This document shows, in pieces, positions 8,451-37,182 of a stretch of 64,000 nucleotides of DNA. A program made the position numbers and the translations under genes. The DNA lies in contig CAJXLF010000002.1 in the NCBI GenBank assembly GCA_913055805.1, forward strand, positions 310,001 through 374,000, given 5' to 3'. This DNA is from an uncultured Salinisphaerales bacterium. Lineage in GTDB: Bacteria; Pseudomonadota; Gammaproteobacteria; Nevskiales; CAJXLF01. Positions within the stretch are counted from its first letter, which is position 1. Every line of letters starts with the position of its first letter. Below the pieces are notes generated by a model that was not told where the DNA came from, ran no database searches, and saw nothing but the letters and a program-made list of their open reading frames with translations.

Positions 8451-9634
8451 CATTGAAACCATCAAAAACCGATATAGAAGACGTGCTGCGCTGGCTGCCC
8501 CTGCCGGTCGTGCTGACACTTGTGCATGCGGGCAGCGAAGTCATGCAGGCTTCTGCGCCTTTCCGCTGGACAGCGCTCACCATCATGATCATGTCCTGGG
8601 GCTGGACACTGACCCTTACCCTGCGCCGCCTGCAGACCGCACGCCGCTACCAGTGCGTGGACGAAGGCATGGTGGCTGCCAAGGAAGCCGCCGCCAGCGA
8701 CCTGCAGCTCAACATTGGCCGTGAAGTCGACGGCCTGGAGCATGAACTCGAACGCGCCAAGGATCTCGTACGCCAGGCGGTGGCGGACCTCTCCGGCAGC
8801 TTCCGCAAGATGGAAAACCAGTCCCGCACGCAAGGCGAAATCGTGACCACCCTGCTGGATACCTCCAGCGGCAAGGGCGACATTCACAGCTTCACCGGCA
8901 AGGCGGCCGGCCAGCTGGAAACGCTTGCCCATGCGCTGACCGAAGTCTGCGAGCAAAGCAACTCCACGGTATCCCATATCGACGAAATGGCCGAGCACCT
9001 GGATGGCATCTTCGACCTGCTCGAAGACGTCAAGTCCATTGCCGACCAGACCAACCTGCTGGCGCTGAACGCCGCCATTGAGGCGGCACGCGCCGGTGAA
9101 GCCGGTCGCGGTTTCGCGGTGGTTGCCGACGAAGTGCGTTCGCTGTCAGAACGCTCTACCAGCTTTAACGAACAAATACGCAAACTGGTATTCAGCGCCA
9201 AGGATTCCATCGACAAGGTGCGCAGCACGGTTGAAAACATGGCCACCCGCGACATGGACCGCAGCAAGGCCGCACAGGAAGAGGTGGGCAACCTGCTGAG
9301 CCAGGTCGAGGAAATGAACAACAGGATTGCCGACGGTATTCGCAAGGTCTCCAGCTGCAACAGCGATGTGCATCAGGCGGTAGGCGCCGCCGTGCGCTCC
9401 CTGCAATTCGAGGACATTACCAAGCAGGCGCTGGATGCGGCCTGCACCCATCTGGTCCGCCTCGGCGAATTAACCGGTCACGTGGTCGATCTCAGTCACA
9501 AGCCGGTGAAAGACAGTGCAGAACTCGACGCCAAGCTTGAGAAAGCCAAACAGGCCAAGCAAGCCACGGATCTGCCGCCGCACAAGCCTGTCACTCAGGT
9601 GTCCATGGATTCCGGCTCGGTGGAACTCTTCTAG
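8447..9634 (+). CDS. Membrane-bound MCP-like protein without a periplasmic sensor domain
   Basis: 395 residues. Two hydrophobic segments close together at about 15-60 would form a short hairpin with almost no periplasmic loop. A coiled coil follows, then a methyl-accepting-type signalling tip ([33 protein letters not shown]). There is no HAMP or PAS domain. The tail ends in GSVELF, the same six residues that end CheD. It is the last gene of the overlapping che series. It may be a receptor for an internal signal or an array scaffold; true methylation sites are unclear. Confidence 0.85.
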
Positions 9635-9697
9635 ACGCATCGCATAAAGCCAAACGTTTAGCTGTTTCCATTCCTCTGCCATACTGCAGGCAGGCAT

Positions 9698-10453
9698 ATG
9701 ACTGAGCAACGGACCATAGACACTCGATCTTTACCCCCCTTGCCTGCCGATGGTGATATCGAGGCACGGCTCAAGGTCAGCGAGGAACGCGAACGCTGGC
9801 TGCTGGAGCATTTCCAGGCACTGTCCGAATACCTGCTGGTGGAACAGGAAGACGAGCGCCGGCAACTTTCCAGAATCCTGCATGACCGTATCGGCCAGTC
9901 ACTGACGGCAGCCATCATCAATCTGCAGACGGCGCAGATGAGCGAAACGGGCATCGACAACGAAACGCTCGATCTGACCTGCCGCACACTTTCCGAATGC
10001 CTCAGCGAAGTCAGGGAAATGGAGCTTAACCTGCGACCTTCCCAGCTGGATGCGCTGGGCCTGAAGCTTGCTGTTGAAGCCTATTTGCAACGGGTGCTCA
10101 CCGGCGGCGGAGAGAGCTATGAACTCTGCGCAGACAACCTCGACGACCGCCTGGACGCACAGGTGGAAACCACGGCCTTCCGCATCATTCAGGACCTCGT
10201 CAAACTCCTGCGCCGCCAGCCAAGCAGTTTCAGACTGAAGATAACCATGGGCAGAACTGGTCGCCAGTTACGGCTCAGACTCGACTATGAACTGACGCCC
10301 GGCGACCAGCAGATAGAAGGCATTGATGAAAAGCAGCTGCTCGGCATCCGCGAACGCATAGCACTCATCATGGGAGAATCCACTCTGGATATTGCACCTG
10401 CAAACGGCGCACTGGAGATACGCCTGCCCCTGCAAACCGGCAGCAATGGTTGA
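9698..10453 (+). CDS. NarX-type sensor-kinase-like protein with degenerate ATPase domain
   Basis: 251 residues, no membrane segment. A coiled coil leads into a HisKA_3-type dimerisation helix with a candidate phospho-His62 (RRQLSRILHDRIGQSL). The following domain keeps the fold signature (FRIIQDLVK, LLGIRERIALIMGES) but lacks the ATPase N-box Asn (QDLVKLLRRQP instead of the usual QEALNN-AxxHA) and the DxGxG box. It therefore probably cannot bind ATP normally and may act as a phosphotransfer or allosteric partner. It lies 63 bp after the che operon. Confidence 0.75.
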   Translation: MTEQRTIDTRSLPPLPADGDIEARLKVSEERERWLLEHFQALSEYLLVEQEDERRQLSRILHDRIGQSLTAAIINLQTAQMSETGIDNETLDLTCRTLSECLSEVREMELNLRPSQLDALGLKLAVEAYLQRVLTGGGESYELCADNLDDRLDAQVETTAFRIIQDLVKLLRRQPSSFRLKITMGRTGRQLRLRLDYELTPGDQQIEGIDEKQLLGIRERIALIMGESTLDIAPANGALEIRLPLQTGSNG

Positions 10454-10510
10454 CGCCGGAGAGGCTAAACAAGCAAATTGTGCGCAATCAGAGAATAAAA
10501 CAGGTTCGCA

Positions 10511-10975
10511 ATGAAATTTGAAAACGCCACCCTGTATCGACAGGTGCTGTCCCGTTCCGTCCCCTTCAATGGCGTAGACGCCAGTATTATCGATTCCCTG
10601 CTGGAACATGGTCTGGTCCTCAGCGCCAAGGAAGACGAACTGGTGTTCTACGAACATATGCGCGGCGGACTGGGGCTGTATGTCATTCTGGACGGTGAGA
10701 TCGAAATCTACCGCACACAGAAATCGGATAACGGCGACGAACACAGTAGTGAAATGCATCTGGCCACGCTGACGCCCGGCCAATGCTTTGGTGAATACTC
10801 ACTGCTGGATGGTCAAAACACCTCGGCGGCCGCCAAGGCGATGGTGGATTCAAAGCTGTTTCTACTGTCGCGCGGAGAGTTCGAGAAAGTCATCCAGCAT
10901 GATGCCGAAGCCGCCAGAACCATCTATCGCAACCTCCTGCTATTCCTGATCGACCGGCTGCGCAAATACCCCTAA
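10511..10975 (+). CDS. Stand-alone cyclic nucleotide-binding (Crp-fold) protein
   Basis: 154 residues with one cNMP-binding beta-roll (about 15-140) and no DNA-binding domain. The phosphate-binding cassette reads FGEYSLLDGQNTSAAAKA: the Gly-Glu is kept but the Arg that grips the cyclic phosphate is replaced, so the ligand may not be cAMP or may be absent. It lies 57 bp downstream of the degenerate kinase gene on the same strand, and the two may be co-transcribed. Partner unknown. Confidence 0.8.
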   Translation: MKFENATLYRQVLSRSVPFNGVDASIIDSLLEHGLVLSAKEDELVFYEHMRGGLGLYVILDGEIEIYRTQKSDNGDEHSSEMHLATLTPGQCFGEYSLLDGQNTSAAAKAMVDSKLFLLSRGEFEKVIQHDAEAARTIYRNLLLFLIDRLRKYP

Positions 10976-10978
10976 CGC

Positions 10979-11800
10979 CTACATCGCCTGTTCGCTGAGT
11001 TCCCAGAGCCTGGCGGCCAGTGCCTCGTCACGGCTGATTCCGGAACCGGACTTGAGTTTTCGCCGCACGAAATATTCTCCCGAATAACGCCCGCCCTCAG
11101 CGGACGTGGCCAGCCACACGGCGGTATCTGCACCCTTGATCGCATCGATCAGAAAGAGACCGATGATCTTCTGGTGCCAACCCGGCATTTCGGCCCAGAT
11201 GCCCGTCGTGACGGCACCGGGATGAAAGGCGTTAACAGTGACATTCGTGCCTGCCAGACGCCGCGCCAGTTCCCGGGTAAACAGCAGGTTCGCCAGTTTG
11301 GCCTGGGCATAACCGAAGAAGGGATGCCAGTGCATAGAGGGGTCTTTAAAGCTGCTTTCGTCAATCTTGCCGCCGTTATGCCCGACGGAACTGGTGACGA
11401 CGATCCGGCCCTGAGAGGCTGCCTTGATCGCCCCCAGGATATGCCGGGTCAGGCGGAAGTGCCCAAAATGCATGATGCCAATCATCGCCTCGAAACCGTT
11501 GGGCAGTTTCCTGAGCGGGTTGGCATACAGGCCGGAGTTCATCATGAACACATCAATCACCGGCATTTTCGCCAGCAACTCGGGGGCAAAACGGTCGATG
11601 TCATCGAAATCACCCAGGTCCAGCGCCATGGCCTCGATCTCGGCAGTCGGCTGTATGGTCTTGATGTCATCCACTGCGGCCTGTGATTTCGCCAGGTCGC
11701 GGGAGGCAATAATCACCCGGTAGCCCTGCCCGGCCAGCGCCCGCGCCATTTCCTTGCCGATACCACTGTTGCCACCGGTGATGAATGCATTCCTAGTCAT
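10979..11800 (-). CDS. Short-chain dehydrogenase/reductase (retinol-dehydrogenase-like)
   Basis: 273 residues from the ATG at 11800, which follows a GAGGTGG ribosome site and overlaps the stop of the upstream CNNM gene; an earlier in-frame ATG at 11818 would add six residues. Classical SDR features: the cofactor loop GGNSGIGKE, the NSG segment after strand four, Ser of VVTSSVGHNGG and the catalytic YAQAK. NAD(P)(H)-dependent oxidoreductase; substrate not deducible. It ends four bases from the converging cNMP gene. Confidence 0.9.
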   Translation of the reverse strand: MTRNAFITGGNSGIGKEMARALAGQGYRVIIASRDLAKSQAAVDDIKTIQPTAEIEAMALDLGDFDDIDRFAPELLAKMPVIDVFMMNSGLYANPLRKLPNGFEAMIGIMHFGHFRLTRHILGAIKAASQGRIVVTSSVGHNGGKIDESSFKDPSMHWHPFFGYAQAKLANLLFTRELARRLAGTNVTVNAFHPGAVTTGIWAEMPGWHQKIIGLFLIDAIKGADTAVWLATSAEGGRYSGEYFVRRKLKSGSGISRDEALAARLWELSEQAM

Positions 11801-18052: not shown

Positions 18053-21000
18053 ATGAACATAAATCAGGGATTCAAGGCATTCACAGGCGGGCTGTTGGCC
18101 CTGGGGTTGTTGGTGTCGGTGCTGCCGGCGCAGGCGGCGGATTTCACGGTCGATCAAAACGACAATGACTGCGGCGACTTGATCTGCGACCTGGTCAGCG
18201 CCATCGAAACCGCCAACACCAACGGCGAGGAAGACAGCATCGACCTGAACGGCAACACCATCCTGCTCACCGTGCCTTACGCCAACGGCGGTGACATGGA
18301 TAGCGGCCTGCCGACCATCGGCTCGGACAACGGCGGCGGCGGCGGTACGGACAAGAGTCTCATCACCATCAAAAACGGCACCATCAAACGGGCCAAATGC
18401 CAGGATGGCTCGGACGCAAGCGACTGCTCAAGCGCAGGTGGCAATACCGGTGCATTCCGCCTTCTTGCCGTGAACTTCGATGCCCGTCTCACGCTGGACC
18501 ACATCGCGCTGACAGGTGGCCAGGTATCTAGCGGTGGTGCTTTGTATGTCAATGGCGCGTCCAGCGTCATCAACATCATTCAGAGCAGCATCTCGAAAAA
18601 TTCGGCTACAGGGGGCAACTACGGTGGCTACGGCGGTGCTGTTTACGTTGCAAACGGAAAAGTTGCTTTCTCCAACAGTGCGCTTTCGGACAATACGGTC
18701 GCCACTGCCTACGGTGACAAACTTGGCGGTGGCGTCTATGTGTCCGGAGGCACGGTTAGCTTTATCAATAGCACGCTCTCTGGGAATGCAGGCGTCGCAG
18801 GTGGACCTCAAAGTGGAGGTGGCGGCATATACGTGCATGGTGGAAGCGCAAGCTTTATTAACAGCACCGTGTCCAATAACGATGCAATCTATGGTGGTGG
18901 CATCGCCGTATACGGTAGTGCCAAGGTCAGCCTGCTTAATACCGTTATCGCAGAGCAAACCGCCGGCAGTGATTGCTATGCGACTGTTGGGGGCACCTTG
19001 ATTTCACTTGGTCACAACCTTGATAGCGATAACAGCTGCAGTCTCAATGCTTCGGGCGATGTGTCGAACACCAACCCACAACTCGGCCCGCTCACCGATA
19101 ACGGCGGCCCCACGCACACCCATGCACTGTGCACGGCCAGTAGCGTACCGGATGCAGCTTGCACCGGTGCCAGCCCGGCGCTAGACGCCGGGGATGAAAC
19201 CCGCTGCCCGACCACCGACCAACGCGGCGAGCCGCGGCGGGGCCTGAGTTGCGACATCGGCGCGTTTGAAGCCACTCCGGCCAGCGTGCTTACGGTGAAC
19301 AGCCTGGCCGATCCGGGCGACGGCACTTGCGATGCCACGGAATGCACCCTGCGCGAGGCGGTGACGGCGGCCAATGCCGATGCCGACAGCAGCCAGATCG
19401 AATTTGCGACCGGCCTCACCGGCACCATCCCCCTCAGCAACGGCTATCTGCCCGTGACCGCGCCGCTGGCGGTGAACGGCCCCGGCCGCGATCTGCTCGT
19501 TATCGACGCGCAAAACAACTCGCGCATTTTTGGTGACCGCAGCCCGGGCACCGCCAGCTACACGCTGCGTGGCCTCACCGTCACGCGCGGCAATGGCGGC
19601 GGCGGCAGCAGCACACGCGGCGGCGCGCTGGCCGGGTGGACCGGCACTACCCTCCGGCTCAACGACGTGCTGGTGAGTGATTCCCGTACGGACCGGGGCG
19701 GCGGTGTCTATACCGATGGCGACGCCTGGCTGCTGAACAGCCTGGTGCGCGGCAACTTCGCCTCGATATCCGGCGGCGGTATTGATGTAGGCGGCACCCT
19801 GTATCTGATCAACAGCGGCCTGGTGGCGAACACCGCAGAGTCGGCCACGACCGTGGGTGGCAGCGGTGGAGGGGGCAGAGCCGCCACCCTGTATGCCAGC
19901 AACTGCCTGATCCAGGACAACCAGGCGCTGGGCAACAGCAGTGGGGGTGGTGACAGTGGCGGATTCTCTCCCGGTATTGCAGAGATGACCGGCTGCACCC
20001 TGCGTGGCAACCGGGCCACCGATAAAGGTGGTGCTCTTACATTTTTACTTGGCGGCACCTCCACTATCCGCAACTCGACCTTTGTCGATAATGAGGCAGA
20101 CGGGGCCGGCGGCGTCCTGTTTCTGTCAGCTAGCTCGCTTAATATCGTGCAGTGCACCCTGAGCAACAATGACGCGGGCAACCTGGCAGTCGCAGCGTTG
20201 CCATCTGGTGGCAGCTTAATCTTCGACCGCAGCCTGCTGGCCGGCAACAGCTCGGGCTGCAGTGGTAATGTCAGCGCCACCCATACCCTCAGCAGCGGCG
20301 AGGGCGGTTGCGGGGCCACCACGGCGACCACCCTGGCCGCCCTCAACCTCGGCCCGCTGGGCGATTACGGCGGCCCCACGCCCACCATCCCGCTGCTGCG
20401 CAGTAGCGACCCCAGCGGCAATGGCATGGACAGCGCCGCCCTCGACGCCGTGGGCTGCCTGAGCGACATCAACAAAGACCAGCGCGGCGTGAGCCGCCCG
20501 CAGGGCGGCAACTGCGACATCGGCGCCTTTGAACGCGAAGCCAGCGGCACGCTCGCCATCGACTTCGGCGATGCGCCGGATGCCAGCGTGAGCACCAGCA
20601 ATCCCAAGGGCTACCCGGTGACGATTGCCGATAGCGGCGCCGGGCATCTGCTGGGCGGGCCTGCGCTTGGCGTGACCGACCCGGACGCCGAAGCCGATGG
20701 TCAGCCCAATGAAGCCGCCGATCTGGACGGCGCCGCCGAGGAAGACGGCCTGGGTACGCCGGTGAACCTCACAGTGGGCAACAGCGGCAGCATTCCGGTC
20801 ACCGCCACGGGCGGCTACCTCAGCGCCTGGCTGGATATTAACCGCGATGGCGACTGGGACGACGACGGCGAACAGCTTGCCAACGGCCTGGACATGAGCG
20901 GCGGCAGCGCCACGCTCACGCCCGACCTCTTCACGGCCAGCGCCGGTGCGACTTACCTGCGCCTGCGCGTCTGCTCCGTCGCCGCGCAGTGCAATACGCC

Positions 21001-22348
21001 GCGCGATGTCGCCGCCGACGGCGAGGTGGAAGATCATCTCGTGGAACTTGAATCCGGCTCGGTGGACTTTGGCAGCGTGGTTACGGGCGACAGTAATGAA
21101 CAAACCTACACCATCACCAACAACACGGATTCGGCGGTAACGCTGGAAGGCTTCATGGTCAGCGGCGCGGGCTACAGTTTCAGCACAGACTGCGGCGCCA
21201 CACTGGCCGCTGGCGATAGCTGCGAGGTGACGATCACCTACAACCCAACCCAGAGCGGCACGGACAGCGGCACGCTGAGCTACACCGCCAATGGCGTTGC
21301 GCAAACGGTGGCACTGAGCGGCGTCGCAATTGACGCTCTGGTAACGCTGAGCCTGAGTGGCTCGCCGTTTGACGAAGACGGTGGGGTGGCGACGGTTACC
21401 GCCATGCTGTCTGATGCCAGCACGCAGGATGTGACCGTGAGCCTGGGCTTTGCCGGCAGCGCCACCAACGGCACAGACTACACTCCCAGCGGTACGCAGA
21501 TCGTGATTCCGGCCGGTGCGCTGACTGCCAGTATTGATCTGCTGGGCAATGACGATGATCTGTTTGAAGGCAATGAAACCGTGATTGTGTCGATTACCTC
21601 TGTGACCAATGCCACGGAGAACGATGAGCAATCCGTCACTGCCGAAATCACAGAGGACGACAGTCTGCCCGAAATCACCCTGAAGAAAGCCTCGGGTGGC
21701 GTCACCTCAGCCAAAGTCGGCAACAAGAACGTGGTGATGCTGGCCGTGGATGTAAAAATCCCCACCTACCCCGAAGCCCTGAATGTGAGCAGCCTTGACC
21801 TCACCGCTGGCGGCTCCGGCCATGACCAGCGCGATGTTTCCAAAGTCCAGCTCTGGCTGGACGATGGCGATGGCAAGTTCAGTGCCAGCAAGGACACCGC
21901 GCTGGCCTCCGGCAGCTACAGCAAGGACAACGGCACCCTCAAACTGACCAAGGACGTCAGCCTGGCCGCAGGCAAGACCCATCGGCTGTTTGTGACCTAC
22001 GACTTCGGCAGCAGCCTGGCCGCCCTGGCCCTGCCGATGATGGCTGGCCTGCCGCTGCTGGCCGGGCTGGGGTTGATTGGCTTCGGTGGCCAGAGGCGGC
22101 GTGCACTGGCGCTGTGCCTGATCCTGCTGTCACCCATCGCCCTCACCGGCTGCCCCGGCGCCCCGGAAGGCGCGGCCGCCTATGTGGCCTACAAGGAAAT
22201 CACGGATGACGACGATGACGATGATGCGGTACAGACCGAAACCTTCCGCGTGGCGCCAAGCGCAGTCACCGCCAGTTTCCCGTCTGTAGAAAAACCCACC
22301 GTCACCGGCCTGCCGATTGTGGGAGACACGGTGACGGTGAGTGAGTGA
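18053..22348 (+). CDS. Giant secreted CSLREA/choice-of-anchor surface protein, paralogue 1
   Basis: 1431 residues. Signal peptide ending AQA-AD; a degenerate CSLREA-like start; right-handed beta-helix repeats rich in Gly and Asn; a first choice-of-anchor Q motif (DQRGEPRRG...CDIGAFE, about 385-405); a clear CSLREA domain (about 416-450, CTLREAVTAAN); more beta-helix; a second choice-of-anchor Q; a GEVED domain; a choice-of-anchor D-like domain (about 1000-1095); a Calx-beta domain (about 1095-1205); and a last beta-sandwich. A cassette interrupts that sandwich: helix 1325-1345, RRR 1348-1350, a second helix ending in lipobox LTGC (Cys1367), Asp 1385-1391. Beta strands resume to the end. Likely a cell-surface adhesin or stalk protein; function unproven. 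Confidence 0.85.
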   Translation: MNINQGFKAFTGGLLALGLLVSVLPAQAADFTVDQNDNDCGDLICDLVSAIETANTNGEEDSIDLNGNTILLTVPYANGGDMDSGLPTIGSDNGGGGGTDKSLITIKNGTIKRAKCQDGSDASDCSSAGGNTGAFRLLAVNFDARLTLDHIALTGGQVSSGGALYVNGASSVINIIQSSISKNSATGGNYGGYGGAVYVANGKVAFSNSALSDNTVATAYGDKLGGGVYVSGGTVSFINSTLSGNAGVAGGPQSGGGGIYVHGGSASFINSTVSNNDAIYGGGIAVYGSAKVSLLNTVIAEQTAGSDCYATVGGTLISLGHNLDSDNSCSLNASGDVSNTNPQLGPLTDNGGPTHTHALCTASSVPDAACTGASPALDAGDETRCPTTDQRGEPRRGLSCDIGAFEATPASVLTVNSLADPGDGTCDATECTLREAVTAANADADSSQIEFATGLTGTIPLSNGYLPVTAPLAVNGPGRDLLVIDAQNNSRIFGDRSPGTASYTLRGLTVTRGNGGGGSSTRGGALAGWTGTTLRLNDVLVSDSRTDRGGGVYTDGDAWLLNSLVRGNFASISGGGIDVGGTLYLINSGLVANTAESATTVGGSGGGGRAATLYASNCLIQDNQALGNSSGGGDSGGFSPGIAEMTGCTLRGNRATDKGGALTFLLGGTSTIRNSTFVDNEADGAGGVLFLSASSLNIVQCTLSNNDAGNLAVAALPSGGSLIFDRSLLAGNSSGCSGNVSATHTLSSGEGGCGATTATTLAALNLGPLGDYGGPTPTIPLLRSSDPSGNGMDSAALDAVGCLSDINKDQRGVSRPQGGNCDIGAFEREASGTLAIDFGDAPDASVSTSNPKGYPVTIADSGAGHLLGGPALGVTDPDAEADGQPNEAADLDGAAEEDGLGTPVNLTVGNSGSIPVTATGGYLSAWLDINRDGDWDDDGEQLANGLDMSGGSATLTPDLFTASAGATYLRLRVCSVAAQCNTPRDVAADGEVEDHLVELESGSVDFGSVVTGDSNEQTYTITNNTDSAVTLEGFMVSGAGYSFSTDCGATLAAGDSCEVTITYNPTQSGTDSGTLSYTANGVAQTVALSGVAIDALVTLSLSGSPFDEDGGVATVTAMLSDASTQDVTVSLGFAGSATNGTDYTPSGTQIVIPAGALTASIDLLGNDDDLFEGNETVIVSITSVTNATENDEQSVTAEITEDDSLPEITLKKASGGVTSAKVGNKNVVMLAVDVKIPTYPEALNVSSLDLTAGGSGHDQRDVSKVQLWLDDGDGKFSASKDTALASGSYSKDNGTLKLTKDVSLAAGKTHRLFVTYDFGSSLAALALPMMAGLPLLAGLGLIGFGGQRRRALALCLILLSPIALTGCPGAPEGAAAYVAYKEITDDDDDDDAVQTETFRVAPSAVTASFPSVEKPTVTGLPIVGDTVTVSE

Positions 22349-23490: not shown

Positions 23491-26400
23491 ATGACCATAA
23501 ATCAGGGATTCAAGGCATTCACGGGCGGGCTGTTGGCCCTGGTGTTGCTGGTGTCGGCGTTGCCGGCGCAGGCGGCGGATTTCACGGTCAATCAGAGCGA
23601 CAGTGATTGCAGCGACTTGGTCTGCGACCTGGTCAGCGCGATCGAAACCGCCAACGCCAGCGCCGAAGATGACGTGATCGACCTCGGCGATCAGACAATC
23701 ACCCTGACATTAGCCTATGACAACGGCGGTGATATGAGTACCGGCCTGCCGACTATCGTCGACGCCGCGACTGCGGGCAGGCTCAGGGTACAGAACGGCA
23801 GCATCACGCGCAGCAGCGACGGCGGCACACCGCAGTTCCGCCTGCTCTATGTGGCTGAAAATGCCGATCTCAGTCTGGATCGGGTCACGCTGAGCAACGG
23901 CCACGCGCCAGACGGAGCGGACGGTGCCAATGGTTCGTCTTCTGGGGGGGCAGGCGATGAGGGCGCTTCTGGCGGCGCCATCTATAATCGCGGCAACCTG
24001 AACCTGGCTTATTGCCGTCTGGAAAACAATCAGGCGGGCGATGGCGGCGCCGGCGGCAGCGCTACTGCCAGTAATTCCGGCGGCGGTAGTCTCAGTGTTT
24101 CTGGGGGGGTAGGCAATGAGGGGGGGCATGGCGGTGCGATCTATTCCGCCGGCAGCGGCGATCTGCGCATCATGCACAGTACTTTCATCAATAACCGTGC
24201 GGGTGACGGCGGTAACGGCGGCGCGGCCACGGCCACCGGCACCGCTGGTGGCGATGTTCAAGCGACTGGTGGTGTCGCATCGCGCGGCGGGTACGGTGGT
24301 GCGATCTATTTTGATCAGGGTTCCCTGAGCATTCTTCACAGCAGTTTGACCGGCAATCGCAGCGGGAACAACGGTACCGGCGGCCAGGCCGAAGCAACTG
24401 TCAACGGCGGTACATCAGGTGCGACCGGGGGCGCAAGCGAAGGGACAGCACAGGGGGGCGGCGCAATCTATGCCAGGGCAGGCGACAAGGTGATTAGCCA
24501 CAGCACCATTGCCGGCAATCTGGCGGGTAACGGCGGCGCCGGCGGTACGGCTACAGCTACCGGCGGCTCTTCTGCGCGAGCTGTCGGCGGGGCTGGCAGT
24601 GCTACCGGCGATGGCGGCGCCGTTTTCTCCGGCGGTGGTACTCTGCACATCACCAACAGCACCCTCACCGGTAATCGCGGTGGCAATGCCGGGGGCGGCG
24701 GCAACGCCACCGCCAGCACCACCAGCGGTGATAGCCAAGCTATTGGCGGCGCCGGGGGTACGGCGCATGATTCGGGCGGCGCGATTACTGCCAGCGGCAC
24801 AGACTTCAGCCTGGTCAACAGCACCGTTACGGACAACCGGGCGGGCGATGGCGGCGCCGGGGGTACGGCCACCGCCACCGGCGGCACTTATGATTTTCCG
24901 GGCCATATTGTGGACGACTCTGGTGCTTTTGCAGGCGCCACCGGCGGCGTCGCTGGCCGGGGATACCGGGGCGGCGACGGTGGCCAGGCCGTTGCCGTTG
25001 CCGGCAATGCCGCCAGCGGCAGCAACGCTGATGGAGGCTTTGCCTCTGCGACTGGCGGCAAAGGCGGCGCCGGCCGCCAACCGGGTGCGGGGGGCATGGC
25101 CACAGCCACTGCCGGCAGTGGCGACGGGACGGGGGACAACGGCAATACTTTTGAGGATGATGGCGCGGACGGCAATCTTGAAGAAGTACCGGGCAGCCTC
25201 TATCTGGCGCAAGGTACTGCCGGTCTCAACAACAATATCCTCAGCGGCGATGCCGGTTTTTGTAAATTGAATTCTGTGACCCCCACCGGTACCAGCAACC
25301 TCGCCACGGACGATTCCTGCGGAACGGGCATTCTCGTCAACGGCACGCCAGTTGGCGACCCTGCCGATCTCATGCTTGATTCCGGTGGCCTGCAGTTCAA
25401 CGGCGGCCCCACGCAGACCATCGCCCTGCTGCCCGGCAGTCCGGCCATTGATGCGGCTGGTGATTGCGCCAGCTTGATGCCGCCCATCACCACCGACCAG
25501 CGCGGCGTGCCGCGGCCGCAGGATGCTGCCTGCGACATCGGCGCTTTCGAGTTGATCACCACCCCCATCCTTGACTTTGGCGATGCGCCGGCGGGTTACC
25601 CGGTCACCCTGGCCGAGAATGGCGCGGCGCATGCCTTGGGTGGCCCGTCGCTGGGTGCTATCGGCCCGGATGCCGAGGCGGATGGCACGGCCTCACCCGA
25701 CGCTGATGCTGACGATGTCAATGCGACGCCCGATGATGAAGACGCGGTGCCAATGATCCTGGCCGCAGGGGCTACCGTCAGCATCCCGGTGAGTAATGCC
25801 AGCGTGGGCACCGTCGGCAGCGCATGGTTGAATCTGAATGACGACGATGATGACGACACTGACTGGAAAGATGCTGGCGAAGTTCTGGTAAGCGATGCTT
25901 CTGCCGCAGGCGGCAGCTTCGATATCACCGTGCCGGCCAAACCGGGTGCACACATCATGCGGCTGCGCACCTGTAACAACACAGGCAATTGCAACCTGCC
26001 CACCGGCATCGCTCTGGATGGCGAGGTGGAAGACCATCTGGTCACGATCCAGCCCACCGTGACCCTGAATGTGGATATGAACACTATCAGTGAGGACGGT
26101 GGCGTGGCCATGGTGACGGCATCCCTGAATACCGCCAGGAAAAGCCGGGATGTCACTGTCACCCTGGGTATTGATGCTGCCTCCACGGCTGGCGCCTCGG
26201 ATTACACACCCCCGGCCGATCTGACCCTGAGCATTCCTGCTGGAGAACTCATCAGCAACGCGCTCAGTTTCACGGCCCTGCCCGATGAAATTGATGAGCC
26301 GGATGAAACCCTGATCGTGAATATCGCCTCGGTAGACAATGCAGTTGAAGCTGTCGACCAGCAACAGACCATCACCATTGCCGACAACGACGGCCCGCCG

Positions 26401-27405
26401 GTGCTGACCGTTACCGGCAGCAGCGCCAGTGAAACCGACGGCACACTCAGTTTCACCGTGACCAAGGGCGGCGACAGCCCCACGCCCGTGACGGTGGACT
26501 ATGCCACTGCGGATGGCAGTGCCACGGCCGGCAGTGACTACACCGCCAGCAACGGCAGCCTGAGCTTTGCGCCGGGCGAACTGATGCAAACGGTGTCCGT
26601 GCCGCTGACCAATGATGCGCTGTTTGAAGATAATGAAACCCTGACCCTGACACTTAGCAATGTGTCGGCCAATGCCAACATCGGCACGGCCAGTGCCACC
26701 GGTACCATTACCAGCGAGGATGCCCGGCCGGTGGTCACGATTACCAGCGCACCGGGCGCTGCTAGCACGGCGAAGGTTGGTGACAGCAACGTAGTGATGC
26801 TGGCGGTGGATGTGGCCGTGCAGGCCTATCCGGAGAAGCTGAATGTGACCCGACTGGAACTCACCGCAGCAGGCTCCGGCCATGACCGCAATGATGTCAC
26901 CCGGGTACGTCTGTGGAAGGACAATGGCGATAACAGCTTCTCCACCGCGGATACCGAACTGCTTACGGGCGTGTTTGACGCTGACAACGGCAAGCTGACC
27001 TTTACCGGCAACGAGATGTTTGATGCGGGCAGTACCACCCGGCTGTATGTGACCTACGACTTCAATACCTCGCTGGCCGCCCTGGCCCTGCCGATGATGG
27101 CCGGCCTGCCGCTGCTGGCCGGACTGGGGTTGATGGGTCTGGGTGGGCGAAGAAGGCGTGCACTGGCGCTGTGCCTGATCCTGCTGTCACCCATCGCCCT
27201 CACCGGCTGCCCCGGCGCCCCGGAAGGCGCGGCCGCCTATGTGGCCTACAAGGAAATCACGGATGACGACGATGACGATGATGCGGTACAGACCGAAACC
27301 TTCCGCGTGGCGCCAAGCGCAGTCACCGCCAGTTTCCCGTCTGTAGAAAAACCCACCGTCACCGGCCTGCCGATTGTGGGGGATACGGTGACGGTGAGTG
27401 AGTGA
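23491..27405 (+). CDS. Giant secreted choice-of-anchor surface protein, paralogue 2
   Basis: 1304 residues. Signal peptide and first 60 residues nearly identical to paralogue 1. Then about six Gly/Ala-rich beta-helix repeats of roughly 45-50 residues (core like NSTLTGNRGGNAGGGGNATA, about 130-560), a choice-of-anchor Q motif (DQRGVPRPQ...CDIGAFE), a GEVED domain (DGEVEDHLV), two Calx-beta domains (about 850-965 and 970-1075) and the same interrupted final beta-sandwich, with lipobox Cys1240 and Asp7. The last part of the gene (27157-27380) is base-for-base identical to giant gene 1. It lacks the choice-of-anchor D domain and second CSLREA of paralogue 1. Probably a surface fibre or adhesin. 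Confidence 0.85.
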   Translation: MTINQGFKAFTGGLLALVLLVSALPAQAADFTVNQSDSDCSDLVCDLVSAIETANASAEDDVIDLGDQTITLTLAYDNGGDMSTGLPTIVDAATAGRLRVQNGSITRSSDGGTPQFRLLYVAENADLSLDRVTLSNGHAPDGADGANGSSSGGAGDEGASGGAIYNRGNLNLAYCRLENNQAGDGGAGGSATASNSGGGSLSVSGGVGNEGGHGGAIYSAGSGDLRIMHSTFINNRAGDGGNGGAATATGTAGGDVQATGGVASRGGYGGAIYFDQGSLSILHSSLTGNRSGNNGTGGQAEATVNGGTSGATGGASEGTAQGGGAIYARAGDKVISHSTIAGNLAGNGGAGGTATATGGSSARAVGGAGSATGDGGAVFSGGGTLHITNSTLTGNRGGNAGGGGNATASTTSGDSQAIGGAGGTAHDSGGAITASGTDFSLVNSTVTDNRAGDGGAGGTATATGGTYDFPGHIVDDSGAFAGATGGVAGRGYRGGDGGQAVAVAGNAASGSNADGGFASATGGKGGAGRQPGAGGMATATAGSGDGTGDNGNTFEDDGADGNLEEVPGSLYLAQGTAGLNNNILSGDAGFCKLNSVTPTGTSNLATDDSCGTGILVNGTPVGDPADLMLDSGGLQFNGGPTQTIALLPGSPAIDAAGDCASLMPPITTDQRGVPRPQDAACDIGAFELITTPILDFGDAPAGYPVTLAENGAAHALGGPSLGAIGPDAEADGTASPDADADDVNATPDDEDAVPMILAAGATVSIPVSNASVGTVGSAWLNLNDDDDDDTDWKDAGEVLVSDASAAGGSFDITVPAKPGAHIMRLRTCNNTGNCNLPTGIALDGEVEDHLVTIQPTVTLNVDMNTISEDGGVAMVTASLNTARKSRDVTVTLGIDAASTAGASDYTPPADLTLSIPAGELISNALSFTALPDEIDEPDETLIVNIASVDNAVEAVDQQQTITIADNDGPPVLTVTGSSASETDGTLSFTVTKGGDSPTPVTVDYATADGSATAGSDYTASNGSLSFAPGELMQTVSVPLTNDALFEDNETLTLTLSNVSANANIGTASATGTITSEDARPVVTITSAPGAASTAKVGDSNVVMLAVDVAVQAYPEKLNVTRLELTAAGSGHDRNDVTRVRLWKDNGDNSFSTADTELLTGVFDADNGKLTFTGNEMFDAGSTTRLYVTYDFNTSLAALALPMMAGLPLLAGLGLMGLGGRRRRALALCLILLSPIALTGCPGAPEGAAAYVAYKEITDDDDDDDAVQTETFRVAPSAVTASFPSVEKPTVTGLPIVGDTVTVSE

Positions 27406-27674: not shown

Positions 27675-27872
27675 ATGAAAGTATTTGCTGAAAGCCTGGC
27701 ATGTTTTCTTTTATTGCTTGTCAGTGCGCTGAACGAGCCGGCCTGGGCCGGCATGATAGATCCGGCGCCGGTGCCAGCCCCGGTTGCCGGCGCAGTCGGT
27801 CCCTGGGGCCTGCTTGCAGCCTGTGTGGTTTATGCGGGTTACCGTCTGGTCAGATATTTACGGCGGCGATAA
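27675..27872 (+). CDS. Tiny secreted protein consisting of signal peptide plus sorting tail
   Basis: 65 residues: N-terminal signal peptide (ending AWA-G near residue 25), a short Pro/Ala linker (DPAPVPAPVAGAVGP), one hydrophobic helix (WGLLAACVVYAGY) and a basic end (RLVRYLRRR). Apart from the linker it is just the three-part C-terminal tail recognised by exosortases. It lies 20 bp before the exosortase gene, so it is a likely minimal substrate or marker protein. No database family is claimed. Confidence 0.6.
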   Translation: MKVFAESLACFLLLLVSALNEPAWAGMIDPAPVPAPVAGAVGPWGLLAACVVYAGYRLVRYLRRR

Positions 27873-27892
27873 TCCAGCCATACGGACCGTTC

Positions 27893-28744
27893 ATGCGGAA
27901 TCTGGCAAAAGCGGCCTGGCTGCCCGGCATGTCGCGCAGGGAGCTGCTGTTCTGGCTGGCTGGCGGCGTGCTCGCGGTTCATTTTCTCAATACCCTGGAT
28001 CTGACCTCACCGGCAACCCTTTTGCTGAGTCTGTTTTCTGCAAATCTTGTCTATTGCTTTGCCTGCTTTGCCGTGATTCAGCGGCTGCGGCAAAGCAACG
28101 CCGCGATAGCAGCCACCGCGCCGGAAACCGGGTTGACTCTGCTGGGCATGCTGGCCACCGTGGGAGTCAGTCTGTTTGCCAATGCCTATGCTATTGGCAT
28201 CATGAGTACGCTGCTGTCCCTGGTGCTGATCTGCCATTACCGCAGTGACCCTTATCTGCGCACCGCCGGCATGATCCTTGCCGCCATTTCCGTGCATGTG
28301 CTCTGGGCGCCGTTGCTGTTTGTTCTGTTGCAGCCCATGTTGTTGGTAGCCGATGCCGCTGCGGTATCACTGTGGCTGTCGTTTCTGCGGCCCGATATCA
28401 CACTGCAGGGGCAGACTTTCGCCGCACCCGGCGGACATGCCATTGCATTAATCGGCGCCTGCTCTTCGTTTCACAATATTTCAATTGCGATATTGGCTTA
28501 TGTTTCCGTGGCCTTGTTGCTGCGCAAGCAGTGGCTGCCTGCCGATGTGCTGTGGCTGGCGGCCATTGTGGTCATCATGGTCATGTTCAATGTGTTGCGC
28601 ATTGGGCTGGTGGCCTGGAGCAGGGAGGCGTATCTCTATTGGCATGATGGCAGTGGCAGTCAGTGGCTGGCGCTGTTGCAGACGCTGGTGCTGTTTGGCG
28701 TCAGCTTCTGGGGTGCCAACGCTGTCAGGCGTTCCGCTGCATGA
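27893..28744 (+). CDS. Exosortase/archaeosortase family transpeptidase
   Basis: 283 residues, eight or so membrane helices. The family's catalytic triad is visible in order: Cys190 (GACSSFHNIS), Arg236 (FNVLRIG) and His251 (YWHDGSGS). Exosortases cleave the C-terminal tail of secreted proteins at the membrane and pass them on for surface attachment. The start ATG at 27893 lacks a good ribosome site; the gene follows the 65-aa protein by 20 bp. The next gene overlaps by ATGA. No polysaccharide genes of the classical PEP-CTERM type lie nearby. The subfamily is not assigned. Confidence 0.8.
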   Translation: MRNLAKAAWLPGMSRRELLFWLAGGVLAVHFLNTLDLTSPATLLLSLFSANLVYCFACFAVIQRLRQSNAAIAATAPETGLTLLGMLATVGVSLFANAYAIGIMSTLLSLVLICHYRSDPYLRTAGMILAAISVHVLWAPLLFVLLQPMLLVADAAAVSLWLSFLRPDITLQGQTFAAPGGHAIALIGACSSFHNISIAILAYVSVALLLRKQWLPADVLWLAAIVVIMVMFNVLRIGLVAWSREAYLYWHDGSGSQWLALLQTLVLFGVSFWGANAVRRSAA

Positions 28745-29286
28745 GCCGTCTGTGGCTGCGGCTGTTTCTGGCGGCATGCCTGCTGGCTTCCATGCTGTTG
28801 CACGCGCGCGCCATGCGGGCTGAGCAGCAATTGATAGCTTCCTTTGACATCTATCAGGCGATAACCCGTGTCTTGAGTGCGCATGATGTCGAAATCCTGC
28901 GCAGTGGCTGGCCGCGGCAAACGGTTCAGCCAAGGACGGTGTACTTCCAGCGCAGGGGCTGCAGTGCGGCCTCGGTAGCGATGCCGTTTCATATTACGAC
29001 CGATGCCTCTGCCAAAATTCTCAACATTGAGCTGGCTGACCGCAGGCAGACAATAAAGTATCTGGAAAAAAGCTGGCGCAAACAGCAGAGTTTTGAGCTC
29101 ATCATGGACTGGACGTCCAATGCCATGCTCGCGGCTGCCGGGCGTTCGCCTTATGCCACAGTCCGTCAGGCGATTCTGCTGATCGAGCCTGCACAATGCA
29201 GCGCAGGGCCTGATCCGGTGGATTGGGCGCAGGTGTGGCGTTTGCCTGTCCCATTGGTGTCTCTGCTGTCAGGCGCAATGACATGA
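28741..29286 (+). CDS. Secreted or membrane-anchored partner of the exosortase
   Basis: 181 residues, overlapping the exosortase by four bases and the next gene by four. An N-terminal signal anchor (LWLRLFLAACLLASMLL) is followed by a soluble domain of about 150 residues containing two Cys (RRGCSAAS, PAQCSAG) that could pair outside the cytoplasm. The position matches EpsI-like accessory proteins of exosortase loci, but I do not see a clear EpsI signature. Unknown function; probably required with the exosortase. Confidence 0.6.
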   Translation: MSRLWLRLFLAACLLASMLLHARAMRAEQQLIASFDIYQAITRVLSAHDVEILRSGWPRQTVQPRTVYFQRRGCSAASVAMPFHITTDASAKILNIELADRRQTIKYLEKSWRKQQSFELIMDWTSNAMLAAAGRSPYATVRQAILLIEPAQCSAGPDPVDWAQVWRLPVPLVSLLSGAMT

Positions 29287-30116
29287 TGCTCGACAGCTGG
29301 TGGTGGTTTTTTCTGTTCTGGGGCCTGCTGGCATTGCTGGCGAGTGCCGAGTGGCAGGCCGCAAGTCCGGCCCGGTCGCTGCTGCGCCGCGGACGCTGGC
29401 CAGCGAATCTGGGGCTGGGATTTGCCAACGGTCTGCTGGTGGCGTTGTTGCCAGTCAGTGTGCTTGCGATTGCGTTCTGGGCTGAGCAGAAGTCGCTGGG
29501 GTTGTTTAACATTCTGGAGCTGCCCGTTGTGCTGGTGGTGGCCGCAACGCTGGTGTTGCGCAGCTTTGCCCAGTATCTGCAGCACCGGCTGATGCATCGC
29601 GTGCCGCTGTTGTGGCGTGTGCATCGCGTGCATCATTGCGATCCGCGTTGCGACGTGACTACCGCATTGCGCTTTCATCCACTGGAATATGCCGTCGTTC
29701 TGCCCCTGCTGGGCGGCCTGACCCTGTTGGGTGGGCTCGACCCTTACACATTGGCCGTATACGAAATCGTCGAGTCGATTTTCGGTCTGGCGACGCACGC
29801 TTGTCTGCAGTTGCCCGGCAGGTTGGAACGCGTGCTGCGTCTGGTATTTGTTACGCCCGCCGTGCATCAGATTCATCATTCCATTGACCGCGATGAATCG
29901 GAAATGAACTATGCCGCCGTTTTTTCGTTGTGGGACCGGCTGTTTGGCAGCTTCCAGGCGTTACCCTCTGTGCCCATGGATGAACGCAGATTCGGCTGCG
30001 ATCAGATAGCGCCGGCGCAGGCGTCCAGTTTTGACCAGCTGATGGATATGCCCTTCAGATCCCGGGCTTATACAGTCGGGCAGACAGCCGGACATTTGGG
30101 TGGAGACGGCGGCTAA
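29283..30116 (+). CDS. Sterol desaturase/fatty acid hydroxylase superfamily membrane enzyme
   Basis: 277 residues from the ATG at 29283 (overlap ATGA). Four to five membrane helices and the three His clusters of the di-iron site: HRLMH, HRVHH and HQIHH. Such enzymes hydroxylate or desaturate lipids using oxygen. Its place at the end of the exosortase unit suggests modification of a lipid involved in the anchored surface layer, but the substrate cannot be read from the sequence. The end FSLWDRLFGSF is typical of the family. Confidence 0.82.
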   Translation: MMLDSWWWFFLFWGLLALLASAEWQAASPARSLLRRGRWPANLGLGFANGLLVALLPVSVLAIAFWAEQKSLGLFNILELPVVLVVAATLVLRSFAQYLQHRLMHRVPLLWRVHRVHHCDPRCDVTTALRFHPLEYAVVLPLLGGLTLLGGLDPYTLAVYEIVESIFGLATHACLQLPGRLERVLRLVFVTPAVHQIHHSIDRDESEMNYAAVFSLWDRLFGSFQALPSVPMDERRFGCDQIAPAQASSFDQLMDMPFRSRAYTVGQTAGHLGGDGG

Positions 30117-32124: not shown

Positions 32125-35100
32125 TCACGCTGAGTGCGTGATTACCAACGCCGGACTGATAACTCGCCGCCGTGAGCGAATCCAGCACAACGATACAGCT
32201 ATCATCAGCCACAACAGCGGGTCGAATGACGCATGCCCGCCGGCCAGACTACAGCCGGAGATGTCATACCACTTGTCATCGTCGCTACTGCTGCCGCTGC
32301 TTGAGCCACCGCCTGAAGTGCCGGAGTCATCACCACTCTCACTATCGCTGTCAGAGTCTGTGTCTGTTTCCTCTGAGGCAACACCCGGACCGCCCGGGTC
32401 CACGATTACACCGTTGACCACACCGTCTGCATCGCCACGGCCACCGTCCACAAAATTCAGAACCACGGTGTTGCCGCTGATTTGCGCACCGGTGTTGTCC
32501 GCAGCGTTGAACAAAAATTCGTAGTAATGGTCGCTCGTGTTACCTGGCTCGGGGCCGAACTTGTACCAGGTTTCCGGATTGTCGCCAGCATGCAGCGTGA
32601 CCGTGACCTGCACAGGTGTGGCACATACGCCGCCCGGGCAATTAATGCTGTAACTGAATAGCCCGCGTGAGAAGTTAACGTCATCGGGTCGACTGGGATC
32701 GTCAGGCGCGGTATTAACTGCCACGGAAACCAGGTCACCACCGTCACTGGCCATGGTCACGTAGTCATCGTTTTCATCCTGAAATGAAGCGACATTGGCC
32801 TGCTGGTTATCCGGCGTTCCGTCACCGTTGCCATCACCGGTACCGCCGCTGCCGTCTGCGTCAGGCACGCCGGATTCCTCGTCGTCCGCTATGCCGTCCG
32901 CATCACCACTGCTTGTGCCGTTGAGCGGTACGCTGAGATTGGGCGTATCCGGATCATCAGACTGAATATCCAGGCTGGCTGACTTGATACCGGTACCGGT
33001 GGGCGTAAAGGTGAGCATGGCGGTGCAATTACCGCCCTCGGCAGGCAAGGACGCACCGCAGTCATTGCTCTGACTGAAATCACTGGCATTACTGCCTGCC
33101 AGCGCTATACCTGACAGATTCAACGCCGCCGAACCCTGATTCGTGATCGTCACAGAGAGCGGCCCTGCTGTGTCGCCTTCAGTCACGTCGCCGAAATCAA
33201 CCGAGGTCGGGTCAACCGTAACATCCGGTGTCGGTACCGCATCGCCCCGCCCGCTCAGAGGCACGCTGACATCCGATTCATCCGCGTCATTGGACTGAAT
33301 GCTCAGTGTGGCCGATTTATCGCCGGAGCTCGACGGTGTGAAACTGACCTCGAAAATACAGTTGTCACCCGCGGATATTGTGGCGTTGTCACAGGCGCTG
33401 TTCTGCGAGAACTGGCCAGCGTCAGTACCCCCGATACCCGGGGCGCCAGAAATGGCGAGGTCGGCGGAACCCGTATTTGCCACGGTAATTTCCAGAGTCA
33501 CCGCGTCACCCACCAAGGTCCCACCGAAATCCAGGCTGGTTGGCGCAACCTCGATTTCGGGCGCGATGCCGTTGACCTGCAGGGAAATGTTCAGCGGGTT
33601 CTCGTCCGGATCATTCGATGATATGACCAGGGTTGCCGTGCGCGCGCCGGTTGCCGAGGGCATGGCTTCGACCGTGACTTCACAATCAGCCCCCGACGCC
33701 AGGGAAGCAGGACAATCGTTAGTCTGACTGAAATCCCCGACATGAGCGCCACTCAGGGAGATTGAATTGAGCGCCAGCGGCCCGGTGCCCTCGTTGTCGA
33801 GCATCACGGTTTCACTGGCCGTGCCGGAGGTCGGGATATCGCCGAAATTCACCGCAGTGGGATCGGCTGCAATATCGGGCACGGTGCCGGTTCCCGACAG
33901 GTTGACCACGACACTGGACTCGTCCGCATCGTTGGAATTAATTGTCACTGTCGCGGTTTTGTTGCCGGTGGAGTCGGGTGTGAATGTCACATCGATCCCG
34001 CAGTTTTCCCCGGGAGCAACCGTGTCGCAATCCTCCGTGAGCCCGAACTGACCAGCATCCGTTCCACCCAGACTCACGGAAGCGATGAGCAGGTTCGCAT
34101 TACCGGTATTGCTCACGGTCAGGGAAAGTGATGCATTGTCGTTCACGAGCACGTCATCGAAATCCAGGGAAGTCGGGCTGACTTCAATCTCCGGCGCAGG
34201 TGCAGGGTCCACGGTGGTGTTTTCTGTCGCTGAATCATTGGCCGCGTTTGTGTCACTGCTGCTGGTTGTTGCACTGGCCGTAAAACTCAGGGCACCGCTG
34301 GACTGGGGAATGACGGTGATACTGGCCATGCCACTGTCACCGTTTGCAATGTTGCCCAGGCTGCAGGTCACGGTACCCGCATTGTGGTTGCAGCCGGCCG
34401 ACGCTGAATCGAAATTACTACCGGAAGGCACATTCGAGCTCAGCTCACTGGCGCCGGCCACATCCGGTCCGTTGTTTGTCACGGTTACGGTATAGGTTAC
34501 ATTCTGACCGACGAAGGCGGGATCAGGACTGTCGGTAACAGACACACTCAGGTCCGCAGAAGCGGTAACCGTCGTGGTTTCGCTGTCACTGTTATCCTGC
34601 GGCTGCGGATCAGGCTCGCTGGCGCTTACCGTTGCGCTGTTTGTGATCTCGCCCGCGGTTTCAGCCGTAACCACAATTTCGACCATGTCGGACCCACCAC
34701 TGTCGATATTCGAGAGTGCGCATGTCACTACCCCGCCGGATTCGTTGCAGCCAGCGCTGGCGCTGTCGAACATGACGCCGCCCGGCAGAGTATCCACGAC
34801 CTGCACCCCGGTCGCTGTCTCGGGTCCGGCATTGTCGACAATCAACTCATAGGTAATGCTGCCGCCTGTCGCCACGGGATCGGGCGAACCTGTCTTGGTC
34901 AGCGACAGATCCGCGGATGGCAATGAATAACGGGCGAAGTTTGTCGAAGGCAGGCTGCCAGACTGCGTAAACAGCCCATTGGCGCTGATGAAGTTGCCTG
35001 CCACGTAAAGCTCGGAGCCTACCAGGGCGATGTCGCTGCCGGAGTTTCCGCCAAGACCTGCGTCCAGGGCACTCCAGCTGCTGCCGTTCCACATGGCGAC

Positions 35101-37182
35101 TTCACGTGCGGGACTTCCCCCGGCTGTAAGGAAGTTGCCGGTCACGAAGACCTTGTTGCCAAGCGTTGCAATGCCGTTCACGGTATTGCCGAAACTCTCA
35201 CCGGCCAGGCCTGTACCAAGGCCCGACCAGTTGCCGCCATCCCAGCGCGCGATACGATTCTCCCCTGCACCACCCCCGGCGTTTGTGAAACTGCCGCCTG
35301 CGTAGACGTCGGCCCCGGAAGCCGCGAGGCTGTTTACCGGGCCGTTTGTGCCGGTGCCCAATACCGACCAGCTTGAATCACTGGTGTCGAAAAGTACGAT
35401 GTTATTGGCCGTCATGCTGTTGGCCGTGTCGAATTCACCGCCGATGTAAAGCAGGTCGTCAACTGCAAGCAATGCATACACGCCGTTGAGGAAACTGCAG
35501 CCACCACAACTGATGCCCGAACCCACGGCATGCCACATGGCACCGTCCCAGCGTGCCAGATCCGTAGCCGCGACACCGCCGACCTCGGTGAAGTCGCCGC
35601 CGGCGTAAAGATTCGAACCCACAACAGCCAGGGCGCGAATATCAAAGCCACCGGTAAGCCCGCCGCCAACATCGGACCAGCTCTGGGTGTTGTTGTCCCA
35701 AACGGCGATGGACTGCGTGCCGGCCAGGCCAGCGGCATCGCTGAAGGTGCCTGCCACATAAACCAGGTCGCCCATCACGGCCACGTCGCTTACAGCACCG
35801 CTAACGCCCTCTCCCAGCGGACTCCAGGTGCCGGCGCTGGTATCGAATACACCAACGCCGCTAATAATCTCCCCGCCCGCCGCCAGTTTTTCGCTCGCGC
35901 CGATGTACAGCAGATTGCCGTCCTTCGTGATACTGGCCAGTCTGCCAAAGTTGCTGATCCCGGTACCATTGGCGGCGCCACCGTCCTGCAGAGCCTCCCA
36001 GCTACCGCTATTCAGGCGGGCAATACCCAAGGCGCCCGCATCATCGATGAAATTGAAAACACCGGCGGCGTACAAGCCGCTGGCCACCAGTACAAAATCA
36101 GTAACTGTACTGTTTCCGGTCTCGGTACCGCTGCCGGTCGCCGACCAGTTGCTGGTGGACGTATCCCATTGCGCGTACCCGTTGGTTGAGGTGGCACCCG
36201 CTACCGTGAAATTGCCGCCTACATGCAGTGTTGTTCCCTGCACCTGCAAAGCCCGCACACCATTGCTGAAGGCGCCGCATGTGACACCACTTCCGAGTGC
36301 AGACCAGCCTCCCGCACCCAGATCAAACTGCGCCACACAGTTCACGCCACTGCCGCCCGCACTGGTGAAATTGCCACCGGCAAACAGGGTGGTATCGGAT
36401 ATGGAAATATCATCCACGAAGAAGCCGCCGGTTGAATTCATGCCACTGCCCAGGGCCGACCAGTTGCTGCCATCCCATTTGGCAATATGGTTCACGGTGC
36501 TGCCACCGGCACTGAAGAAATGGCCTCCTACATAGATATCACTGCCATCACCGGTGATGATGCGCACTGTGGGACTAAAGGGCGAATGGGAGACGCTGAC
36601 ACCCGAACCCAGCGCAGAAAAACTGGAGCCGTTCCAGCTGGCAATGTTGTTGACACTGGCTGCACCAGCGCTTGAAAAACTGCCGCCTACGTACAGGGCG
36701 GTGCCGTCATGGTAGAGGGCGAACACATTGCCGTTTGTGCCACTGCCCAGCGCCGACCAGGTCTCGGTATTACTGTCCCAGACCGCGATATTGACGGCAC
36801 TGATCCCGCCGGCACGGTCAAAATCACCGCCGACATAAACTTTGTCGCCATGTATGGCAATGGCATTAACCAGACCCGTACCGGCAATACCGCTTGTGTT
36901 GGTCACGCCGCCACCAAGGTCGGAGAAACTCTGGCTGGAAGGATCCCACCGAACAATATTGCTGACTTTCGCATGCCCGGCCATGGTGAACTCGCCACCC
37001 AGATAGATACTGCCATCCGGCGCTTCAGCGACCACATTCACGGCATGGGTAACTACATCTTCCACGCCCGGCACGCCGAATTCCTCCGACCAGCCCGCTG
37101 CCCATGATGCCGAACAGAGCAGCGACAGCGAGACCATCAGCACGGCCCTGGCTAAAACAATTCTTTTGCCTATGTAGCGCAT
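32125..37182 (-). CDS. Giant secreted protein: beta-propeller, DUF11, choice-of-anchor D and U
   Basis: 1685 residues. Signal peptide (ending SWA-AG); a long run of propeller blades (about 40-770), each with a YVGG-F motif and NIA-WD...WSALGSG, like Rax2/delta-60 repeats; two DUF11 domains (about 775-1010, DLSLTKTGSPDPV); about five choice-of-anchor D domains of some 100 residues (VDFGDV...GTDAGQFS...C); an Asp-rich linker; a choice-of-anchor U domain (YKFGPEPGNTSDHYYEF, DGGRGDADG, VDPGGPG); a Ser/Asp tract; and a tail with GCSLAGG, a helix and RSRRR, followed by 12 more residues. Exported and probably sorted to the surface. It is the third giant surface protein in the window and has its own strand and promoter. 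Confidence 0.85.
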   Translation of the reverse strand: MRYIGKRIVLARAVLMVSLSLLCSASWAAGWSEEFGVPGVEDVVTHAVNVVAEAPDGSIYLGGEFTMAGHAKVSNIVRWDPSSQSFSDLGGGVTNTSGIAGTGLVNAIAIHGDKVYVGGDFDRAGGISAVNIAVWDSNTETWSALGSGTNGNVFALYHDGTALYVGGSFSSAGAASVNNIASWNGSSFSALGSGVSVSHSPFSPTVRIITGDGSDIYVGGHFFSAGGSTVNHIAKWDGSNWSALGSGMNSTGGFFVDDISISDTTLFAGGNFTSAGGSGVNCVAQFDLGAGGWSALGSGVTCGAFSNGVRALQVQGTTLHVGGNFTVAGATSTNGYAQWDTSTSNWSATGSGTETGNSTVTDFVLVASGLYAAGVFNFIDDAGALGIARLNSGSWEALQDGGAANGTGISNFGRLASITKDGNLLYIGASEKLAAGGEIISGVGVFDTSAGTWSPLGEGVSGAVSDVAVMGDLVYVAGTFSDAAGLAGTQSIAVWDNNTQSWSDVGGGLTGGFDIRALAVVGSNLYAGGDFTEVGGVAATDLARWDGAMWHAVGSGISCGGCSFLNGVYALLAVDDLLYIGGEFDTANSMTANNIVLFDTSDSSWSVLGTGTNGPVNSLAASGADVYAGGSFTNAGGGAGENRIARWDGGNWSGLGTGLAGESFGNTVNGIATLGNKVFVTGNFLTAGGSPAREVAMWNGSSWSALDAGLGGNSGSDIALVGSELYVAGNFISANGLFTQSGSLPSTNFARYSLPSADLSLTKTGSPDPVATGGSITYELIVDNAGPETATGVQVVDTLPGGVMFDSASAGCNESGGVVTCALSNIDSGGSDMVEIVVTAETAGEITNSATVSASEPDPQPQDNSDSETTTVTASADLSVSVTDSPDPAFVGQNVTYTVTVTNNGPDVAGASELSSNVPSGSNFDSASAGCNHNAGTVTCSLGNIANGDSGMASITVIPQSSGALSFTASATTSSSDTNAANDSATENTTVDPAPAPEIEVSPTSLDFDDVLVNDNASLSLTVSNTGNANLLIASVSLGGTDAGQFGLTEDCDTVAPGENCGIDVTFTPDSTGNKTATVTINSNDADESSVVVNLSGTGTVPDIAADPTAVNFGDIPTSGTASETVMLDNEGTGPLALNSISLSGAHVGDFSQTNDCPASLASGADCEVTVEAMPSATGARTATLVISSNDPDENPLNISLQVNGIAPEIEVAPTSLDFGGTLVGDAVTLEITVANTGSADLAISGAPGIGGTDAGQFSQNSACDNATISAGDNCIFEVSFTPSSSGDKSATLSIQSNDADESDVSVPLSGRGDAVPTPDVTVDPTSVDFGDVTEGDTAGPLSVTITNQGSAALNLSGIALAGSNASDFSQSNDCGASLPAEGGNCTAMLTFTPTGTGIKSASLDIQSDDPDTPNLSVPLNGTSSGDADGIADDEESGVPDADGSGGTGDGNGDGTPDNQQANVASFQDENDDYVTMASDGGDLVSVAVNTAPDDPSRPDDVNFSRGLFSYSINCPGGVCATPVQVTVTLHAGDNPETWYKFGPEPGNTSDHYYEFLFNAADNTGAQISGNTVVLNFVDGGRGDADGVVNGVIVDPGGPGVASEETDTDSDSDSESGDDSGTSGGGSSSGSSSDDDKWYDISGCSLAGGHASFDPLLWLMIAVSLCWIRSRRRVISPALVITHSA

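Follow-up and report, generated by a model that had tools for sequence, protein, structure and literature searches.

Three proteins encoded side by side in the window (the whole stretch of 64,000 nucleotides that was analysed), namely a tiny one that carries a sorting tail, an exosortase, and a small partner with two cysteines, probably make up a recurring variant of the exosortase system, the three genes being its conserved unit. The first-pass annotation had proposed an exosortase-type enzyme with a full catalytic triad, together with its own partner and a minimal substrate that is only a tail, and this combination recurs among 17 further copies of the exosortase. The four genes at 27675-30116 are real, and all are open as described there, with a 20-bp gap between the genes for the 65-aa protein and the exosortase, and ATGA overlaps between exosortase and partner and between partner and hydroxylase:

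27675-27872, + strand: 65-aa tail-only protein, with a signal peptide, PAPVPAPVAG, a hydrophobic stretch and RLVRYLRRR; the tail starts at about 27762
27893-28744, + strand: exosortase, 283 aa, of no named subfamily (from motifs and profile searches)
28460-28645, + strand: codons of the predicted catalytic triad, Cys190 (28460-28462, TGC), Arg236 (28598-28600) and His251 (28643-28645)
28741-29286, + strand: secreted or membrane-tethered partner, 181 aa, with two conserved cysteines (74 and 153)
29283-30116, + strand: fatty-acid hydroxylase/sterol-desaturase superfamily protein, 277 aa, with histidine boxes (PF04116)

How might such a unit work? The explanation that best fits the sequences, and in which we have fairly good confidence, is that a short pre-protein (little besides a Sec signal and a sorting tail at its C-terminus) would be exported, with its tail staying in the membrane and the arginine cluster inside. 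The exosortase, with Cys190 as the nucleophile aided by Arg236 and His251, would then cut near the PAPVPAP stretch, and the remaining c. 10-15 residues would be either released or transferred to an acceptor. The partner, placed on the periplasmic side of the inner membrane, probably assists the exosortase, in the position held elsewhere by EpsI or the XrtF-associated protein. Among the relatives, the client or acceptor would mostly be linked to exopolysaccharide. For the question of what exosortases attach their targets to and what role their partners have, this three-gene unit, with one 65-residue client and outside any polysaccharide cluster, would offer a tractable test case, its product being of a size that mass spectrometry can analyse directly.

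The exosortase and its relatives

The 283-aa protein carries the exosortase motifs in the form of Cys190, Asn233-x-x-Arg236 (Asn-Val-Leu-Arg236) and His251-x-x-x-Gly255 (His251-Asp-Gly-Ser-Gly255). It is the Cys, NxxR and HxxxG motifs that define EpsH, for which the argument from motif and mechanism has been made (PMC1569441). Cys190, Asn233, Arg236 and His251 are invariant across 18 exosortases (that of the window and its 17 relatives), Gly255 is invariant or nearly so, and the Cys190, Arg236 and His251 motifs align to those of a bona fide XrtA, so the candidate catalytic residues picked out from the window alone do align.

Placement within the superfamily is less straightforward. Against TIGR04178 the window exosortase scores 22.1 bits (cut-off 23), rising to 25.3 bits, over the cut-off, in a six-frame search of its genome, where it is the only protein of this type; nine of the 18 family members match the model at E values up to 0.01. 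None of the named NCBIfam subfamilies (XrtA to XrtX, the cyanoexosortases and the archaeosortases) is matched by the window exosortase, and the other 17 give weak matches only, far under the cut-offs. An XrtA (locus L044) that served as a control, and is not counted among the 17 relatives, passes the same test with 276 bits, its EpsI domain giving 84 bits. A search of the window's genome with Pfam PF09721 gave no match, no relative was found among PDB sequences, and predicted structures of exosortase and partner, made from two-row alignments, were unusable (pLDDT 42). When the window exosortase is left out of its family profile, the profile still recovers it with an E value of 3e-39; the window partner, treated likewise, ranks first of 896 segments of the window (E 4e-4). 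Both are thus more than chance open frames. Since no named exosortase subfamily, EpsI or PEP-CTERM model fits, we regard this as a new exosortase subfamily of a known kind: in the superfamily by its motifs yet outside every named subfamily, it is best called a new variant with a dedicated mini-substrate and a new partner family.

The 17 further copies of the exosortase were found by surveying about 1,200 genomes together with plasmid records. The first homologue, 28% identical and from a gammaproteobacterial metagenome-assembled genome, is preceded by a small tail protein and followed by a secreted partner, as in the window. With profiles made from it, copies were found in other proteobacterial genomes, and the plasmid search gave two in Rhizobium, where exosortase and partner are each annotated on the plasmid only as 'hypothetical protein'. 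Sampling suggests a frequency, counted per genome, of about 3% in the class of genome G580 and of less than 1% in the window's own class. No relative turned up in the closest 99 genomes, which would fit a sporadic and perhaps horizontally moved unit. Viral contigs yielded no relatives, and a scan of genome contigs returned only the contig already known. Four gammaproteobacterial matches (L077-L080) were excluded because they look like other exosortases: one adjoins an IPTL-type tail, and two lie in loci that also encode a PEP-type tail protein.

The two-cysteine partner and the polysaccharide context

The most constant companion of the exosortase is the partner gene, which lies directly downstream in all 18 copies, mostly with overlapping stop and start codons; the expectation that it would occur with homologous exosortases is thereby upheld in 17 of 17 other copies. 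Its products are about 145-205 aa long and have a hydrophobic segment at the N-terminus and two near-invariant cysteines (Cys153 in 18/18, Cys74 in 17/18). Distances within the exosortase family correlate with those within the partner family (r 0.67, falling to 0.57 when one Rhizobium copy is left out), to a degree reached in none of 5000 permutations. No Pfam or NCBIfam family was matched by the partner. That it might be EpsI (TIGR02914) was considered and rejected: none of the 18 partners matches the model, and a profile comparison with an EpsI domain was negative.

The EpsH/XrtA and EpsI pair of the PEP-CTERM system resembles the unit in its Cys/NxxR/HxxxG motifs, in having a partner gene directly downstream and in the frequent exopolysaccharide context of the relatives, but differs from it in that the window exosortase and partner match no XrtA, TIGR02602, PF09721 or EpsI models. 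A variant exosortase with an adjacent partner is also found in Flavobacterium johnsoniae, as XrtF and its exosortase F system-associated protein (PMC10936215, PMC12188702); this organism belongs to another phylum, however, and the window proteins match no NCBIfam model of the XrtF system.

Classical exosortase loci sit among exopolysaccharide genes, and it had been remarked that none are present here. This holds for the 64-kb window, in which 16 exopolysaccharide query proteins found no homologue, but not for the family at large: the examined flanks contain exopolysaccharide genes at 11 of the 17 relative loci. The family therefore keeps the classical association, with exceptions that include the window; the same queries found nothing at L014 and some other relative loci.

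The adjoining hydroxylase

The fourth gene encodes a protein that matches PF04116 (1.5e-29) and has the histidine boxes HRLMH, HRVHH and HQIHH. With the ornithine lipid hydroxylase model OlsE (NF052566) it scores 77 bits against an equivalog cut-off of 475. Its coupling to the exosortase had been taken to suggest a modified lipid as the anchor, an idea that the comparison with relatives does not support: none of the other 17 exosortase copies has a hydroxylase homologue in its flanks, and the family is a common one, with nine matches in the window's genome and at least one in 86 of 117 relatives, so that the gene is weak evidence for such an anchor. The nearest hydroxylase homologues sit in unrelated contexts, and a literature search found no publication combining an exosortase with a fatty acid hydroxylase.

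Could the hydroxylase nevertheless be a working part of the system in this organism, making a hydroxylated lipid that acts as acceptor for the exosortase product? The ATGA overlap implies co-translation, and there is a precedent in archaeosortase A (ArtA), for which genes of lipid head-group synthesis (pssA and pssD) are linked in several species and have been shown to be needed (PMC7157517). The likeness lies in a sorting enzyme linked to lipid genes; the linkage in the window, however, is to a hydroxylase and is seen in a single genome. The absence of the hydroxylase from all 17 other copies, the abundance of its family in this genome and in relatives, and the unrelated settings of its nearest homologues make a working role quite unlikely. 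The more specific notion of a one-enzyme, one-peptide system with its own lipid-tailoring enzyme, in which the peptide of c. 10-15 residues would be carried on a hydroxylated lipid as a peptidolipid, must count as speculative and improbable. The hydroxylase is probably an incidental, lineage-specific neighbour, added locally and lying outside the conserved three-gene unit.

Candidate clients

Seven of the 17 relative exosortases adjoin a small protein of about 57-126 aa whose N-terminus is signal-like and whose end is of the PAP/PGP-hydrophobic-basic type (two such proteins at one locus), and at an eighth (L043) a 345-aa protein with a PAP/PGP-type tail adjoins the exosortase; no adjacent tail protein was found at the other nine. 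A motif rule was applied to the 4,012 six-frame segments of 381 kb; as it was set after the tails had been seen, its counts are descriptive. It picks out 18 segments. The 65-aa protein is the only one from the window, nine come from relative loci (the L043 protein and eight small ones), and G1120 supplies four, from a tandem cluster of larger secreted proteins. Of the other four, two are PEP-type controls from loci of different exosortases and two look like chance matches.

In the window's genome, where clients were sought with tail profiles, there is one convincing match, the 65-aa protein, the next being an implausible frame with an E value of 0.06; the 65-aa protein is thus the single recognisable client in this genome. 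A tail profile built without the 65-aa protein fails to recover it; the grounds for its membership are therefore its motif, its position and its signal peptide. It matches no PEP-CTERM substrate model, having the tripartite layout with PAP/PGP in place of Pro-Glu-Pro; the system thus differs from PEP-CTERM systems both in its tail and in having one tiny client in the genome.

The mature parts of the small tail proteins are tiny and have no common sequence, as might be expected if the 65-aa protein were no substrate and instead a small regulatory or structural subunit occupying the exosortase. We think this unlikely, since tails of the same type are found on full-size secreted proteins in two relatives (the 345-aa protein of L043 and a run of 210-237-aa proteins in G1120), and we continue to treat the 65-aa protein as a putative substrate.

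Giant surface proteins near the locus had also been put forward as clients, and here the evidence turned out otherwise. That encoded at 32125-37182 (- strand), with a propeller-like N-terminus and HYDIN/ASH-type repeats, has a JDVT-CTERM-like tail at its end (26.2 bits, cut-off 27); about nine such tails are encoded in the genome, seven of them scoring over the cut-off. The JDVT-CTERM class has its own protease, MrtJ (PMC11980579), which is comparable to the present system as a dedicated enzyme-target two-gene unit but differs in coming from an unrelated protease family and in acting with a tail that has an invariant cysteine. The genes at 18053-22348 and 23491-27405 encode tandem paralogues, choice-of-anchor-Q giants (the first also with CSLREA), whose common C-terminus comprises a hydrophobic-RRRR stretch, a lipobox-like ALTGC, a run of Asp and some 60 further residues. 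This tail is internal, is without the P-x-P pattern and, in a genome-wide search, was found only in the pair. With proximity as the one point in favour, it is very improbable that any of these giants is the real client of the exosortase.

Two further arrangements were seen among other genomes. At locus L085 (G1120:C56), positions 8330-11212 encode secreted proteins one after another, with tails of the PAPVAGxG type, the exosortase of that genome being on another contig; these are likely to be full-size clients. In two related genomes, a small PEP-tail protein of about 110-120 aa (L083, 5846-6211; L084, 4190-4528) is encoded within a few kilobases of a lone exosortase, possibly as another dedicated pair.
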